A stretch of DNA of 64,000 nt. Source: Paenibacillus lentus (GTDB taxonomy: Bacteria > Bacillota > Bacilli > Paenibacillales > Paenibacillaceae). A program made the position numbers and the translations under genes. Positions within the stretch are counted from its first letter, which is position 1. Every line of letters begins with the position of its first letter. The notes under the pieces were generated by a model. The model was not told the origin of the DNA. It worked only from the letters and a program-made list of their open reading frames with translations, and did not search any database. Below are positions 16,272 to 21,137 of this stretch, piece by piece. The stretch lies in NCBI RefSeq assembly GCF_003931855.1, contig NZ_CP034248.1:4030001-4094000 (forward strand). The letters run 5' to 3'.

Positions 16272-16560
16272 GATTATTCACCCCAAGTATATGTATATAA
16301 TGTCGGACATATGCATCATCTGTTGTCTATTGTCGAATTTTCTAGGTGTGCAGCTCCTTAAAAATCAGCGTGAATCGTCGCACCAAAACCTCCTTCGGGA
16401 CTAAGCGATGCATGCCTATATCCTCATGTCACAATTTTACAAGCAGTCACTTACTTTATACAAGGGACTTAATTCACACTATGAGTTATGCTTTTTACAC
16501 AAAATATAAGAAGGCAACGAGAAATATCCCGCTAACCTCCTATTTTAGCTGCAATTTTAA
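16272..16560. other. Non-genic stretch
   Basis: No convincing frame, hairpin or operator is seen. It separates the small membrane protein from the decayed ATPase end. Confidence 0.5.
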
Positions 16561-16745
16561 CTAATTAAACCGCCAAATCTTCATCCGCTGCAGCCTCAGC
16601 GCGTTCAAGACAACGGAAACTGGGCTTAGCGCCATCGCAGCACGGCTACCCATGGTGCTAATAACCCAGACGCAGCAACTAAAAAGCTCAGCAAACTGTT
16701 GCTAAGCACTAAAAAAATGTCGAATATTGTTCAGCGTCTTGCCCC
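16561..16745 (-). pseudogene. Decayed C-terminal end of a metal-transporting P-type ATPase
   Basis: Reading the minus strand from about 16745, one frame gives GKTLNNIRHFF, another LSFLVAASGLLAPWVA, and the first resumes as RAAMALSPVSVVLNALRLQR before a stop at 16561-16563. Together these are the standard ending of CopA-like copper/heavy-metal P1B ATPases ('R-K-T-x-x-N-I-x-Q-N ... G-L-L-x-P-x-x-A-G-A-A-M-A-x-S-S-V-S-V-V-x-N-x-L-R-L'). At least two frameshifts are visible: the expected GGTGCTGCG after GCC has lost one base. The rest of the gene is not in the window. Confidence 0.75.
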
Positions 16746-16907: not shown

Positions 16908-17152
16908 ATTTTCTCCTCCTTCCCAAAACTCATCTCCTCTTCTAAACTCAGACGAAATCATGAAGCTATCATGAGAAATCCAAAAATGTTTCCTTAGGTA
17001 AAAAAATATAGCTATAATTAAAATAGTTTCAAAAAATCCATTTGTCAAGAAATAAATTCCAATTAATATAATTATTTCTTTTTAATCTTGACAAATAAAA
17101 AATCTTTTATTTATAAAAAGACTGTATATAACTCATGCATTTATGAAAAATC

Positions 17153-17174
17153 AGAGATTTACGATCTCTTTTTT
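17153..17174 (+). terminator. Short hairpin with T run upstream of the FecCD operon
   Basis: AGAGAT (17153-17158) and ATCTCT (17164-17169) around a 5-nt loop lead into six T residues. With no intact plus-strand gene before it, it could be a leader attenuator or a remnant terminator. Confidence 0.4.
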
Positions 17175-17258
17175 GCCTAGGGAAACAATTTTGGTCTATA
17201 CAAATAATTTTTCAAATATTATAATTATCTCTAATTTATTTATCGGGAGGCGAATAGA

Positions 17259-18320
17259 ATTCTGGGTCATCTCACTGCTTACAGAAGAAAAATAAAATGG
17301 CAAACCATAACGCTACTCCTGTTGCTCATTACGCTTGGGTTAACTGCGATTGCAGCATGTGCGATTGGACCGATTAGCATTCCATTTCGAAAGACGATGG
17401 GAATTCTGCTGTCAGCCATGGGTTTCCCTTCATTTACTTCTTTTACAGATCGAGAACTGCTGGTCGTTACTGAAATGCGTTTGCCGCGAGTGCTTGCCGG
17501 AGGCTTAGTGGGGGCAGCTCTTGGGGTTTCCGGGGGCGCAATGCAAGGACTATTCCGTAATCCGCTCGTTGAGCCTGGTTATGTGGGGGTATCTAGCGGC
17601 GCTGCTTTAGGGGCGGTGTGTGCTTTATATTTTGGCTGGAATCAGTTCGGTTCATGGACACTTCCTCTGTCCGCTTTTCTAGGTGCAGCCCTCGCTGTCA
17701 TGATCATTTTGGCCGTATGGCAGAAACATCGCCATAAATCCATCGCATTATTGCTGCTGCTTGGCATTGGAGTCAATGCTCTGCTATCTGCCGTGATCAA
17801 TATGCTTGTGGCAAGTTCGAACAGCGAGCAGGAGCTGAGAAGCATTGTATTCTGGCTGCAGGGGGGGCTGGAAGCCCGAACATGGCATCATGTCCAACTG
17901 ATTGCTCTACCCATTTTAGCGGGATGTGTGATTCTCTTTACATTCGGACGCGACCTTAACACCATGCTGCTCGGTGATGAGCAGTCAACTCACGCTGGCA
18001 TTAATGTCGATAGAATGCGTCCGTTACTGCTTATCCTAATCTCCCTCATGACCGGATCGGCCGTAGCGATCAGCGGCATCATCGGCTTCGTAGGGCTTGT
18101 GGTTCCTCACGCCGTTCGTCTGGTTACCGGTCCGGACCACCGCTTTCTGCTTCCTGCGAGTGCCCTTGGAGGGGCGATTTTCTTAATCTGGGCCGATCTG
18201 GCCTCACGCATGATGCTTCAGCCTATCACTTTACAGGTCGGAGTAGTGTGCGCGCTTATCGGTGCTCCTTTATTCATTGCTCTAATTATGTCTTCTCGAC
18301 GTGGAGGTGCTCTCAGGTGA
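17259..18320 (+). CDS. FecCD-type ABC transporter permease, non-canonical start
   Basis: This is a BtuC/FecCD-family permease for iron siderophores, heme or corrinoids. It has about ten membrane helices, with the family landmarks LPRVLAGGLVGAALGVSGGA, MQGLFRNPLVEPGYVGVSSG and ISGIIGFVGLVVPHAVRLV. No ATG, GTG or TTG lies in frame at the proper N-terminus: the first is TTG 17322, inside the first helix. The frame stays open upstream and encodes a plausible cytoplasmic start (LGHLTAYRRKIKWQTITL). GGGAGG at 17245-17250 points to ATT 17259 (8 nt) or CTG 17262 (11 nt). This start gives 353 residues. Its stop overlaps the ATPase start. Confidence 0.82.
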   Translation: MLGHLTAYRRKIKWQTITLLLLLITLGLTAIAACAIGPISIPFRKTMGILLSAMGFPSFTSFTDRELLVVTEMRLPRVLAGGLVGAALGVSGGAMQGLFRNPLVEPGYVGVSSGAALGAVCALYFGWNQFGSWTLPLSAFLGAALAVMIILAVWQKHRHKSIALLLLLGIGVNALLSAVINMLVASSNSEQELRSIVFWLQGGLEARTWHHVQLIALPILAGCVILFTFGRDLNTMLLGDEQSTHAGINVDRMRPLLLILISLMTGSAVAISGIIGFVGLVVPHAVRLVTGPDHRFLLPASALGGAIFLIWADLASRMMLQPITLQVGVVCALIGAPLFIALIMSSRRGGALR

Positions 18321-19114
18321 ACGTACTTGATTTTCGCGATGTTAGCATCTTGATTCAGAGGAAATCGATTCTACGAAACCTTTCCTTTGAAATCCCTAAA
18401 GGACAATTTGTCGGATTAATCGGCCCAAATGGCAGCGGAAAATCGACCCTGCTGCGTACGATGTCAGGATGGCTTCCGCGAGCTAAAGGGAGAATCAGCC
18501 TTTTCGGACAACCTTTGGAGAGCTATAAACGAAGAGATATTGCTCGTCTGGTTAGTTTTGTGCCCCAAGATACCGTGGTGGATTTCGACTTTTCTGTAAG
18601 GGATATTGTCATGATGGGTAGACACCCTTACATGTCCCGCTTTAAAGAGGCGACTCGCGAGGATTTGCTCGCTGCCAAGCGGGCTATGTCCACAACGGAA
18701 ATTTCCCATCTGGCTAATCGCGCTGTAACAAGCCTGTCCGGCGGTCAGCGGCAAATGACGTTCATCGCCAAAGCATTGGCCCAAACCCCAAAGCTGCTGC
18801 TGCTTGACGAGCCGATCTCGGCGCTGGATATCCGGCATCAATTACACACGCTGGAGCTTGTCCGGCAGCTGACTTCTGACGGACTCACCGCCGTCGCCGC
18901 TCTTCATGATCTTAATTTGGCGGCGCGATACTGTGATCTACTGATTCTGCTCCATCAAGGGCAGATTCACGGCGTCGGCCTGCCCAAGGATGTACTTACT
19001 CCGTCGTCAATATTGGAGGTGTACGAAGTGCATGTTGAGCTCCAGCAAGATCCGTGGTTAGGCAGCTTATCGATAACTACGATCAACACAGAGGAACATT
19101 TTCACAATAGTTAG
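18317..19114 (+). CDS. FecE/BtuD-type ABC transporter ATP-binding protein
   Basis: The chosen start is GTG 18317, which overlaps the permease stop (GTGA) behind a GGAGGTG site, so the two are translationally coupled. The product has 265 residues. Walker A is GPNGSGKST (about residues 36-44), the Q-loop lies in RLVSFVPQDTVVDFDFSVRD, the signature is LSGGQRQ, Walker B is LLLLDEP, and the switch histidine is in AALHDLNLAARYCD. It energises import by the permease. The substrate class (siderophore, heme or corrinoid) is inferred from the permease and binding protein. Confidence 0.93.
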   Translation: MNVLDFRDVSILIQRKSILRNLSFEIPKGQFVGLIGPNGSGKSTLLRTMSGWLPRAKGRISLFGQPLESYKRRDIARLVSFVPQDTVVDFDFSVRDIVMMGRHPYMSRFKEATREDLLAAKRAMSTTEISHLANRAVTSLSGGQRQMTFIAKALAQTPKLLLLDEPISALDIRHQLHTLELVRQLTSDGLTAVAALHDLNLAARYCDLLILLHQGQIHGVGLPKDVLTPSSILEVYEVHVELQQDPWLGSLSITTINTEEHFHNS

Positions 19115-19158
19115 CTTCGATCCAAACAACTATATTTTTAATTGGAGGAGTATAAATT

Positions 19159-20109
19159 ATGAATCTTATCAGGCTTACAAAGGTCTGGAATGTTATGATC
19201 ATTATACTCGCAGCTGCTATCATTTGCGGATGCAGTAAACAGGCTGAGTCCAGCGGATTAACCAAGCAAGCAGCAAATTCCGCCATGAATCCCGACAAAC
19301 CTATGCGGATTGCTGCTCTATCGCTCGATGCAGCAGAGGCAGTTCTGGAGCTCACCGATCCCTTGCGAGTCGCTGTATTGACACGCAGCGCCGCCGATCC
19401 TGATCTAGCTTTCAATGCCGACAAGGTATCCGAGGAGATCATTCAAATTGCCGGTGCCACCTCCCTTGATCCGGAAAAGATCATGTCCTATAATGCAGAT
19501 TTACTCATAATGACCAAAGGGCATGAACAGGAAAAAGAGGCTGCGCAAATACTAGAGCAAGCTGGTGTTCCATTAATAAGCCTCGATATATGGGATACGT
19601 TCGAGAAGATGGAAGCGAACTACCATGTCCTAGGTCAAGCCCTTGGTGAAGAGGAAACCGCTGAGCAGATTACCTTTGAAATAAATAATAAATTAGAAGC
19701 AGCTCATCAGGCCGTTGCCGGAAAGGAACAGCCCTCGGTACTCGTAATTTCCCCCGTCGGCCCGGGGACTGGTCCCTTTCTGATCGGTTCATCCAACATT
19801 TCGTACGACATCGTAAGCCATGCCGGAGGGAATCATTTAGCCGATGAGCTATCACTCACCCGGTCAGCCAAAGCTTCTATGGAAGCTCTCCTCAAAACAG
19901 ATCCCGATTATATTATCCTGCTACAATGGAGGCTGGGTGACGATTCAGATTTAGAAGAACTGACAGAGGCTGCTGGCTGGTCAACGCTCACAGCGGTGCA
20001 AAGCAACCGGGTACATACGATGTCCGTGAAGCAATTGCTGTATCCAAACCGTTATAACGCTGATACCGTCATTGAGCTCGCTCGCCTATTCCATCCAGAT
20101 GCCTTCTAA
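19159..20109 (+). CDS. FecB/BtuF-type substrate-binding lipoprotein
   Basis: A 316-residue lipoprotein, with lipidation expected at Cys25 (IICGC). The mature part has the helical-backbone class III binding-protein layout: RIAALSLDAAEAVLELTDPL, EKIMSYNADLLIMTKGHEQE, and ISLDIWDTFEKMEANYHVLG before the long helix, then VLVISPVGPGTGPFLIGSSN and DPDYIILLQWRLG. It captures the ligand for the upstream permease/ATPase pair (45 nt upstream) and is preceded by TTGGAGGAG. No ligand-defining motif is evident, and no cobalamin riboswitch lies before the operon. Confidence 0.88.
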   Translation: MNLIRLTKVWNVMIIILAAAIICGCSKQAESSGLTKQAANSAMNPDKPMRIAALSLDAAEAVLELTDPLRVAVLTRSAADPDLAFNADKVSEEIIQIAGATSLDPEKIMSYNADLLIMTKGHEQEKEAAQILEQAGVPLISLDIWDTFEKMEANYHVLGQALGEEETAEQITFEINNKLEAAHQAVAGKEQPSVLVISPVGPGTGPFLIGSSNISYDIVSHAGGNHLADELSLTRSAKASMEALLKTDPDYIILLQWRLGDDSDLEELTEAAGWSTLTAVQSNRVHTMSVKQLLYPNRYNADTVIELARLFHPDAF

Positions 20110-20141
20110 ATATCTTAGTGCAGGTATAAGGAGTGATTTTC

Positions 20142-21068
20142 ATGAAAGCCGTACTGTTAATGTCTTACTGCCATTTGCCATCGATCGATGACATTCCCTT
20201 GTTCTATCATCATTTATATCATGGAAGGCTCCCTTCTCCCGACATCATGGAAAGAGCAGTCGACCGTTACCGTAATCTGGCGAAGCCAGATCCGCTCGGT
20301 TCCACTACCCTCCGTCAGGCCAGGGCTCTAGAGAGAAGACTGATGCAACATCTTGGAGAGCCAATTCCTGTTTATACGGCTCACAAGCATACACGGCCTT
20401 TCGTCCATGAAGCAATGGAGCAAATCATTGCGAGTGACGTGAAGCATCTGTATACTTTGCCGCTGTCACCCCTCTATTCTAAGACGGGAACCGGCAGCTA
20501 TCAGCGAGCTGCCGAGCAGGCCCGCGATCAGCAGGATGCGGATGTATCCATTACGCATATTCCCGCTTGGCATCTTCACGATCGCTTTGTTGAAGCGCTA
20601 AGTACCCGATTAATCGAAGCGCTGCGCTGGATTTCCGCTAGAAACCGCAGTCGTACGGTCGTCATTTTTACCGCGCACAGCAAACCAGGCCTTCCCGCGC
20701 CACACCGGGATTACATCGCTGCCTTTACCGAGCTGGCTGAAGCGGTTGCTACACAAGCGAATTGCCATAATTGGAAATTAGCCTACCGAAGCGGCGGCCC
20801 CGCTCCGCAAAAATGGCTTGGGCCAGATGTACTTGAGGTCATGGAGAACACGGCCCAGGAAGGCGCATCCGCCGTCATCATTTGTGACCTGCTCTCAATG
20901 ACCGAGAACATTGAGACTTTACAGAACTGCAGGCTCGATGGCTTAGTCAAAGCACGAGAGTTGGGACTGGAATTTGCGACTACGGAATTTCTAAATGATG
21001 CGGATGATTTTATGACAGCTCTTGAGGAAATCGTACTCGCCCAAATCCTACATGAAGCACCTCAATAA
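20142..21068 (+). CDS. Ferrochelatase-family protein linked to an ABC importer
   Basis: A 308-residue protein with the HemH/CpfC fold: KAVLLMSYCHLPSIDDIPLF at the start, TAHKHTRPFVHEAMEQI, and TLPLSPLYSKTGTGSYQRA. The metal-site histidine falls in FTAHSKPG (His179) and the acidic partner in TENIETLQ (Glu258), mirroring His183 and Glu264 of the B. subtilis enzyme. Surrounding blocks differ from housekeeping enzymes, for instance TENIETL replaces the usual SDHIEVL-like text, so this is a divergent paralog. It may insert or remove iron (or another metal) from imported porphyrin. ATG 20142 sits 8 nt behind AAGGAG; the gene is the last of the transporter operon. Confidence 0.8.
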   Translation: MKAVLLMSYCHLPSIDDIPLFYHHLYHGRLPSPDIMERAVDRYRNLAKPDPLGSTTLRQARALERRLMQHLGEPIPVYTAHKHTRPFVHEAMEQIIASDVKHLYTLPLSPLYSKTGTGSYQRAAEQARDQQDADVSITHIPAWHLHDRFVEALSTRLIEALRWISARNRSRTVVIFTAHSKPGLPAPHRDYIAAFTELAEAVATQANCHNWKLAYRSGGPAPQKWLGPDVLEVMENTAQEGASAVIICDLLSMTENIETLQNCRLDGLVKARELGLEFATTEFLNDADDFMTALEEIVLAQILHEAPQ

Positions 21069-21098: not shown

Positions 21099-21137
21099 AG
21101 GCTTTGCACCTTTTCAAGGGTACAAAGCCTCTCCTTT
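21099..21137 (+). terminator. Terminator of the FecCD operon
   Basis: AGGCTTTG (21099-21106) pairs with CAAAGCCT (21123-21130), followed by CTCCTTTCTTCT, between convergent genes. Confidence 0.7.

Follow-up and report, generated by a model that had tools for sequence, protein, structure and literature searches.

The window analysed here comprises 64,000 nucleotides of Paenibacillus lentus (contig NZ_CP034248.1, positions 4,030,001 to 4,094,000). At 17259-21068 it carries a four-gene operon in which the permease, ATPase and binding lipoprotein of a FecCD-type importer are followed by a divergent ferrochelatase-family protein, here called HemH2. Judged by phylogeny and gene context, HemH2 is not the housekeeping ferrochelatase. 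What is new is a likely control signal, an MntR-like operator of two dyads located at the promoter. We suggest that this is not a plain iron/heme operon but one encoding a cassette, repressed by manganese, for import and (de)metallation, a proposal that in our view is evenly poised between right and wrong. MntR control of the operon is its firmest new step and, from the sequence evidence, quite probable.

HemH2 and the conservation of its operon

Two genes of this genome belong to the PF00762 family. The other one is located between hemE- and hemY-like genes (named by eye), and HemH2 is 27% identical to this housekeeping HemH. In a tree of 78 rows, the 17 HemH2 proteins group as one clade (support 100/100, stem 1.11) and 26 housekeeping-type rows as a separate one (support 100/99). 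Long branches were flagged within the HemH2 clade, so its internal order is unsure; in a quick tree without the long rows (L078, L079, L080 and L081; L and G numbers denote the loci and genomes surveyed), HemH2 (13 rows) and housekeeping enzymes (26 rows) stay separate, the support being the Shimodaira-Hasegawa-like approximate likelihood-ratio test only. HemH2 also scores below the NCBIfam hemH equivalog cut-offs (TIGR00109: 118.7 vs 124.6; PRK12435: 144.7 vs 455). The closest matches among 398 genomes of the phylum outside the order are placed outside the HemH2 clade, and several of these relatives adjoin hemE- and hemY-like genes (by eye). The special role proposed in the initial annotation presupposed that HemH2 is neither the sole ferrochelatase of the genome nor grouped with the housekeeping enzymes; both hold, since a second hemH is present in a hemE-hemH-hemY operon and HemH2 stands apart from CpfC/HemH in a strongly supported clade.

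HemH2 is found in 19 of 392 genomes of the order (match above 160 bits, identity at least 40%). The next matches do not exceed 172 bits and 36% identity and are housekeeping-like; those put in the tree (L053, L055-L064) all lie within the housekeeping clade. In 17 of the 19 genomes, permease, ATPase, binding protein and HemH2 follow each other in that order on one strand, the distance from the binding-protein gene to HemH2 being -4 to +91 bases in every case, and this recurrence places the four-gene linkage beyond chance. The 17 full operons span five genera and two families; within the source genus the operon occurs in 3 of 40 genomes at E 1e-50. The two remaining genomes have either a HemH2 gene at a contig edge (L083, G195) or a HemH2 fragment without transporter (L082, G072), and both were left out of alignments and counts, as were L085 (G051, housekeeping type) and L084 (G027, no HemH2). 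A second ferrochelatase was found in 14 of the 17 full-operon genomes; for G392, G349 and G399 the search cut-off may hide one.

A third type of ferrochelatase, of about 340 residues (Pfam 319-347 bits), was seen at L003-L019, that is, in 16 genomes of the same genus and one from another family. It is distant from both HemH2 and the housekeeping type in the tree, and its surroundings differ among the five loci inspected. Some HemH2 operons have peculiarities of their own. In G102 (L068:8364-9410) the binding-protein gene is split by a stop and the other three genes are open; in G092 (L081:9102-11836, L178) a PF01297/ABC/ABC-3 metal transporter with its own MntR-like box lies directly behind HemH2; and behind the operon at L071 stands a GTPase of the CobW/COG0523 type whose best match is ZigA (531.5 bits, below the cut-off of 600).

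Candidate operator and promoter

The initial annotation saw neither a cobalamin riboswitch nor a clear Fur box and offered no control signal. The two absences are borne out, as an Rfam scan of the window at the gathering score gave no match to a cobalamin riboswitch or any other element and the Fur boxes are no better than shuffles. Fur control was rejected, the best 7-1-7 box fitting 8-10 of 14 positions with a shuffle p of 0.57-1.0 in all 17 operons. For the signal there is now a candidate, an operator of MntR (manganese) type at the promoter, and it moves the interpretation of the operon away from a response to lack of iron and closer to one to lack of manganese.

The conserved dyad pair reads roughly TTTGCMTTAGGNAAA and TTTG-N5-8-ACAAA. 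Twelve of the 17 upstream regions carry this bipartite pattern without mismatch, with dyad centres 18.5-20.5 bases apart; elsewhere it has one mismatch (L075), three (L069 and L070) or five (L078 and L080). When 10 of the 17 regions were compared with 60 shuffles each, no shuffle was as good in nine of them and one was in L080. In all 17 the operator abuts or overlaps a promoter-like site. According to an excerpt of PMC11275975, the MntR dimers of Bacillus subtilis occupy 18-bp sites spaced by 1 bp, and an excerpt of PMC9861239 gives AATTTGCCTTAAGGAAACT as part of the B. subtilis mntH site. The MntR consensus in an excerpt of PMC10448178 disagrees with recognition sequences reported earlier, which weakens any exact MntR consensus.

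A single DtxR-family protein (PF02742) is encoded in this genome; it scores above the MntR equivalog cut-off (246.3 vs 138) and by this measure is a true MntR. A gapped form of the box matches the genome at eight places, five of them within open reading frames (ORFs) of at least 100 amino acids. The three outside ORFs are at the mntABCD-like promoter, at the HemH2 operon and at a second site in the gap upstream of that operon. The corresponding matches outside ORFs are four of eight in G004 (the mnt-like promoter, both sites of the operon gap and L192), three of five in G012 (the mnt-like promoter, the upstream site of the operon gap and L193) and three in G392, where nine of 17 matches had loci (L212 at an mnt-like gene, L187 and L208). 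The operon boxes of G012 and G392 do not fit the gapped pattern.

The surroundings of PF01297 and Nramp genes were surveyed in 13 of the 17 operon genomes, with four of 34 PF01297 matches lacking a locus; no Nramp gene was found in five of the 13 (G000, G004, G012, G102 and G092). Box-like sites with at most one mismatch number 11 in 164 kb around these genes vs 4 in 236 kb of other loci. Counted without shuffle control, the classical MntR pattern (at most three mismatches) occurs at 8 of 30 PF01297 loci and 3 of 12 Nramp loci, and the Zur pattern (at most four mismatches) at 12 of 30 and none of 12, no locus being both MntR- and Zur-like. At no more than two mismatches, the MntR pattern is retained at 6 of the 30 PF01297 loci (L134, L171, L176, L177, L178 and L181). 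The upstream stretch of L167 is misplaced, this locus being close to the beginning of a contig. At the housekeeping hemH locus there is no box within two mismatches.

The four-gene layout on the plus strand with a GTGA overlap, as described in the initial annotation, agrees with our gene calls and Pfam scores (Table 1); the overlap, at 18317-18320, joins permease and ATPase, and the domains make up a complete FecCD (class II) importer. No ATG, GTG or TTG is in frame for the permease before 17322, and its likely start is a rare ATT. This ATT is placed identically behind the ribosome-binding site in the window, L066 and L067; L066 adds an ATG six bases on, and L067 has no ATG, GTG or TTG. The single shared terminator that had been proposed is represented by a hairpin behind HemH2, but its tail is T-poor and the terminator scan does not list it, so a shared terminator is only plausible.

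Table 1. Features of the HemH2 operon and its upstream region (window coordinates)
Feature	Position	Strand	Remarks
MntR-like box, upstream copy	16988..17002	-	immediately follows promoter-like sites of the minus strand (17048-17020 or 17032-17005)
Short hairpin then T run (AGAGAT...ATCTCTTTTTT), 5' of operator	17153..17174	+	by eye; absent from terminator-scan list
Operator box 1, TTTGCCTAGGGAAAC, MntR-like dyad	17172..17186	+	pattern match
Operator box 2, TTTGGTCTATACAAA, second dyad	17190..17204	+	centre 18.5 bases from box 1; overlaps -35
Promoter-like TATACA-17-TATAAT	17197..17225	+	same arrangement in L066, L067, L068
Ribosome-binding site GGGAGGCG of permease	17245..17252	+	by eye
FecCD-type ABC permease	17259..18320	+	FecCD (Pfam) 302.2 bits, above Pfam cut-off; likely ATT start 17259, or CTG 17262
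ABC ATPase	18317..19114	+	ABC_tran 115.1 bits, above Pfam cut-off; GTG start overlapping permease stop
Substrate-binding lipoprotein	19159..20109	+	PF01497 / Peripla_BP_2 93.1 bits, above Pfam cut-off; lipobox-like ICGC by eye
HemH2, divergent ferrochelatase-family protein, 308 aa	20142..21068	+	PF00762 Ferrochelatase 163.6 bits vs cut-off 27
Hairpin 3' of HemH2, possible terminator	~21099..21130	+	folding z -2.63; absent from terminator-scan list

The upstream MntR-like box has a counterpart in the same gap of G004 and G012. Together with the minus-strand promoter-like sites (16988-17048), it is oriented outward from the operon. Its counterparts in L066 and L067 are directed at an amidase gene (PF01425), for which tblastn against the window returned a chance match only. 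Further upstream, at about 16560-16700 on the minus strand, there is a remnant with stops that looks by eye like the terminal part of a heavy-metal P-type ATPase.

Active site, cargo and possible function

HemH2 was aligned with B. subtilis CpfC and 25 housekeeping enzymes of the order. The metal-site residues Y9, K82, H83, H179 and E258 are kept in all 17 HemH2 proteins, H179 and E258 aligning with His183 and Glu264 of CpfC; more broadly, the equivalents of CpfC Tyr13, Lys87, His88, His183, Ser222, Trp230 and Glu264 are retained throughout. Around them, Phe258 is replaced by Ser, His262 by Asn, Trp220 by Tyr, Gln221 by Arg and Ser121 by Gly, again in 17/17; the initial annotation likewise describes a conserved His179/Glu258 pair in altered surroundings. 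In Listeria monocytogenes CpfC, the propionate contacts given in an excerpt of PMC9794026 are T14, Y46 and S53 (p4), Y124 (p2), R45 (p6) and R29 (p7). HemH2 has lost the p4 Thr (Thr15, kept in 0/17) and the p7 Arg (Arg30, kept in 1/17), both of which are present in 25/25 housekeeping enzymes. The p2 Tyr (17/17), the p6 Arg (15/17) and the p4 Tyr (14/17) are largely retained, and the p4 Ser is absent from HemH2 (0/17) and housekeeping enzymes (0/25) alike; the position of B. subtilis Ser54 is Asp in 17/17 HemH2 proteins and Phe in 25/25 housekeeping enzymes. With the metal-site residues kept and the ring contacts and second shell changed, HemH2 appears to have preserved metal handling and modified ring recognition, and coproporphyrin III would be a less likely substrate. 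A structural model of HemH2 (mean pLDDT, the predicted local distance difference test, 60.8) matches CpfC entries with Z 12.4-13.6 at a high root-mean-square deviation of 6.2-8.8 and was used for the fold alone, absences from the list of fold matches being given no weight; the model of the binding protein (42.9) was not used, and each was built from three sequences. We consider it somewhat probable that HemH2 has chelatase activity.

Among solved structures, the permease is closest to the hemin permeases 5b57 (196.7 bits), which we take to be BhuU, and HmuU (4g1u, 195.8 bits), which outscore HI1471 and BtuC by about 19 bits. The nearest solved relatives of the binding protein are mixed in type. 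Its residues H122, W145 and W257, invariant in the 16 proteins aligned (L068 was excluded owing to its stop), are candidates for the binding cleft and for putative heme binding by the lipoprotein.

We propose that manganese-loaded MntR would repress the operon in manganese-rich cells and that scarcity of manganese would release MntR and turn the operon on. The lipoprotein would then capture a complex of a metal with a macrocycle, a tetrapyrrole resembling heme or protoporphyrin more probably than coproporphyrin, for import by the FecCD permease/ATPase pair. In the cytosol HemH2, a chelatase with an intact metal site and a reshaped ring pocket, would remove or exchange the metal, feeding a metal pool or a manganese-sparing (heme/iron) metabolism apart from the housekeeping ferrochelatase. 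Reaction direction and cargo, which like the metal we infer, are the weakest parts of this scheme.

Several observations weigh against the manganese-repressed cassette. The gapped box is not enriched in this genome (8 matches vs 5 in the reversed control), and the ungapped 15-base 7-1-7 palindrome shows no genome-wide enrichment (19 vs 16), which is why the gapped pattern was used and position relied on instead of counts. The operator match is weak in L078 and L080, and because the pattern was drawn from the tested operons, the shuffle result expresses likeness, not independent discovery. The geometry varies as well: box 2 sits on the -35 in four operons (the window and L066-L068), in 12 others box 1 begins 4-15 bases past the -10, and the arrangement in L070 is ambiguous; such a shifting position would be easier to reconcile with a DNA site bound by a repressor than with an RNA element. 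In NCBIfam, none of the four proteins reaches a curated heme, B12 or siderophore model. Finally, the loss of ring contacts could alternatively mean that the ligand is not a tetrapyrrole.

Were the cargo heme and HemH2 a reverse ferrochelatase freeing its iron, control by manganese could follow from manganese-short cells leaning on iron. The similarity of the permease to hemin permeases and the intact metal site agree with this, and FetB of Porphyromonas gingivalis, presumably the same protein as IhtB, is a precedent with a similar fold (match to 9b86, Z 8.7). IhtB is termed a putative ferrochelatase/reverse ferrochelatase in an excerpt of PMC13227078. However, none of the 17 operons has a Fur box above shuffles and the IsdE model gives 76 bits against a cut-off of 298.65, and we think iron release from heme unlikely. 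Of the special role first envisaged for HemH2, then, the non-housekeeping, import-tied part is backed by the conserved linkage, and iron extraction from heme lacks regulatory support. The reverse flow, in which an imported metal-free, protoporphyrin-like ring would receive iron from HemH2 to give quick heme for manganese-sparing enzymes such as heme catalase, agrees with the forward-reaction residues that HemH2 carries and with changes at p4 (loss of Thr15, Ser54 to Asp), a propionate missing in protoporphyrin. Yet the Phe already found at the Ser54 position of the housekeeping enzymes makes this site weak evidence, and Arg30 is lost in 16/17 although its partner p7 is present in protoporphyrin too; ring salvage strikes us as improbable.

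A corrinoid or cobalt-ring importer like BtuFCD, with HemH2 acting on cobalt and so sparing a manganese-dependent ribonucleotide reductase, is suggested by the top NCBIfam ranks, a BtuC model for the permease and a corrinoid ATPase model. Both scores (272.9 and 297.9) are far under their cut-offs (461 and 537), a second BtuC model (243.5 vs 334) and BtuF (21.7 vs 234) also fall short, and the window has no cobalamin riboswitch, so that we regard corrinoid uptake as very improbable. We rate just as low the idea that HemH2 is a degenerate paralogue that persists solely because it hitch-hikes with an importer of siderophore type: the fragment without transporter in G072 and the broken binding-protein gene in G102 would suit it, but 45 positions, the metal site among them, are invariant across 17 proteins that diverge down to 40% identity with the HemH2 of the window. 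A manganese-acquisition system is doubtful rather than remote. Here the importer would bring in a complex of manganese or another metal with a metallophore, not necessarily a porphyrin, and HemH2, with a rebuilt ring pocket and the metal site retained, would extract the metal in the cytosol; if true, both this use of the ferrochelatase fold and this route of manganese uptake would be novel.

Relation to known systems

HemH2 shares the PF00762 family, the fold and the metal-site residues with the CpfC/HemH enzymes of B. subtilis and L. monocytogenes; unlike them, it falls outside the housekeeping clade, is encoded in an importer operon and has Thr15, Arg30, Trp220, Gln221, Phe258 and His262 replaced. 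The domain make-up and permease family of the operon are those of HmuTUV/BhuTUV, BtuCDF and siderophore importers, but the operon adds a fourth (chelatase) gene and MntR-like control, and no curated subfamily model is reached here. FetB/IhtB of P. gingivalis is likewise a chelatase-fold protein linked to uptake; we take it to be an exported lipoprotein of the CbiK branch, whereas HemH2 belongs to the HemH branch and has no signal peptide by eye. With the HmuS heme dechelatases of Bacteroidota, the common idea is removal of the metal from acquired heme; according to an excerpt of PMC13227078, HmuS resembles CobN/ChlH, with no similarity to HemH detected. The operator sequence, promoter contact and dyad spacing are common to the MntR regulon (mntABCD, mntH) and the HemH2 operon. 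Going by the result lists, literature searches on MntR with heme or ferrochelatase and on the MntR regulon turned up no ferrochelatase or FecCD importer under MntR control, and a literature search for a second ferrochelatase in Paenibacillus gave no papers under the terms used.

Because chelatase, importer and metal switch are genetically tied in 17 genomes, a single small operon suffices for testing substrate, metal and direction. The system bears on how metal is released from imported rings without heme oxygenase and on why cells keep a second ferrochelatase. If a gene of the ferrochelatase family is switched by manganese, the metabolism of manganese and that of tetrapyrroles would be connected in a manner not seen in the result lists of our literature searches. 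A spare, altered ferrochelatase in an import operon hints at a new way to take metal from, or put metal into, an imported ring.

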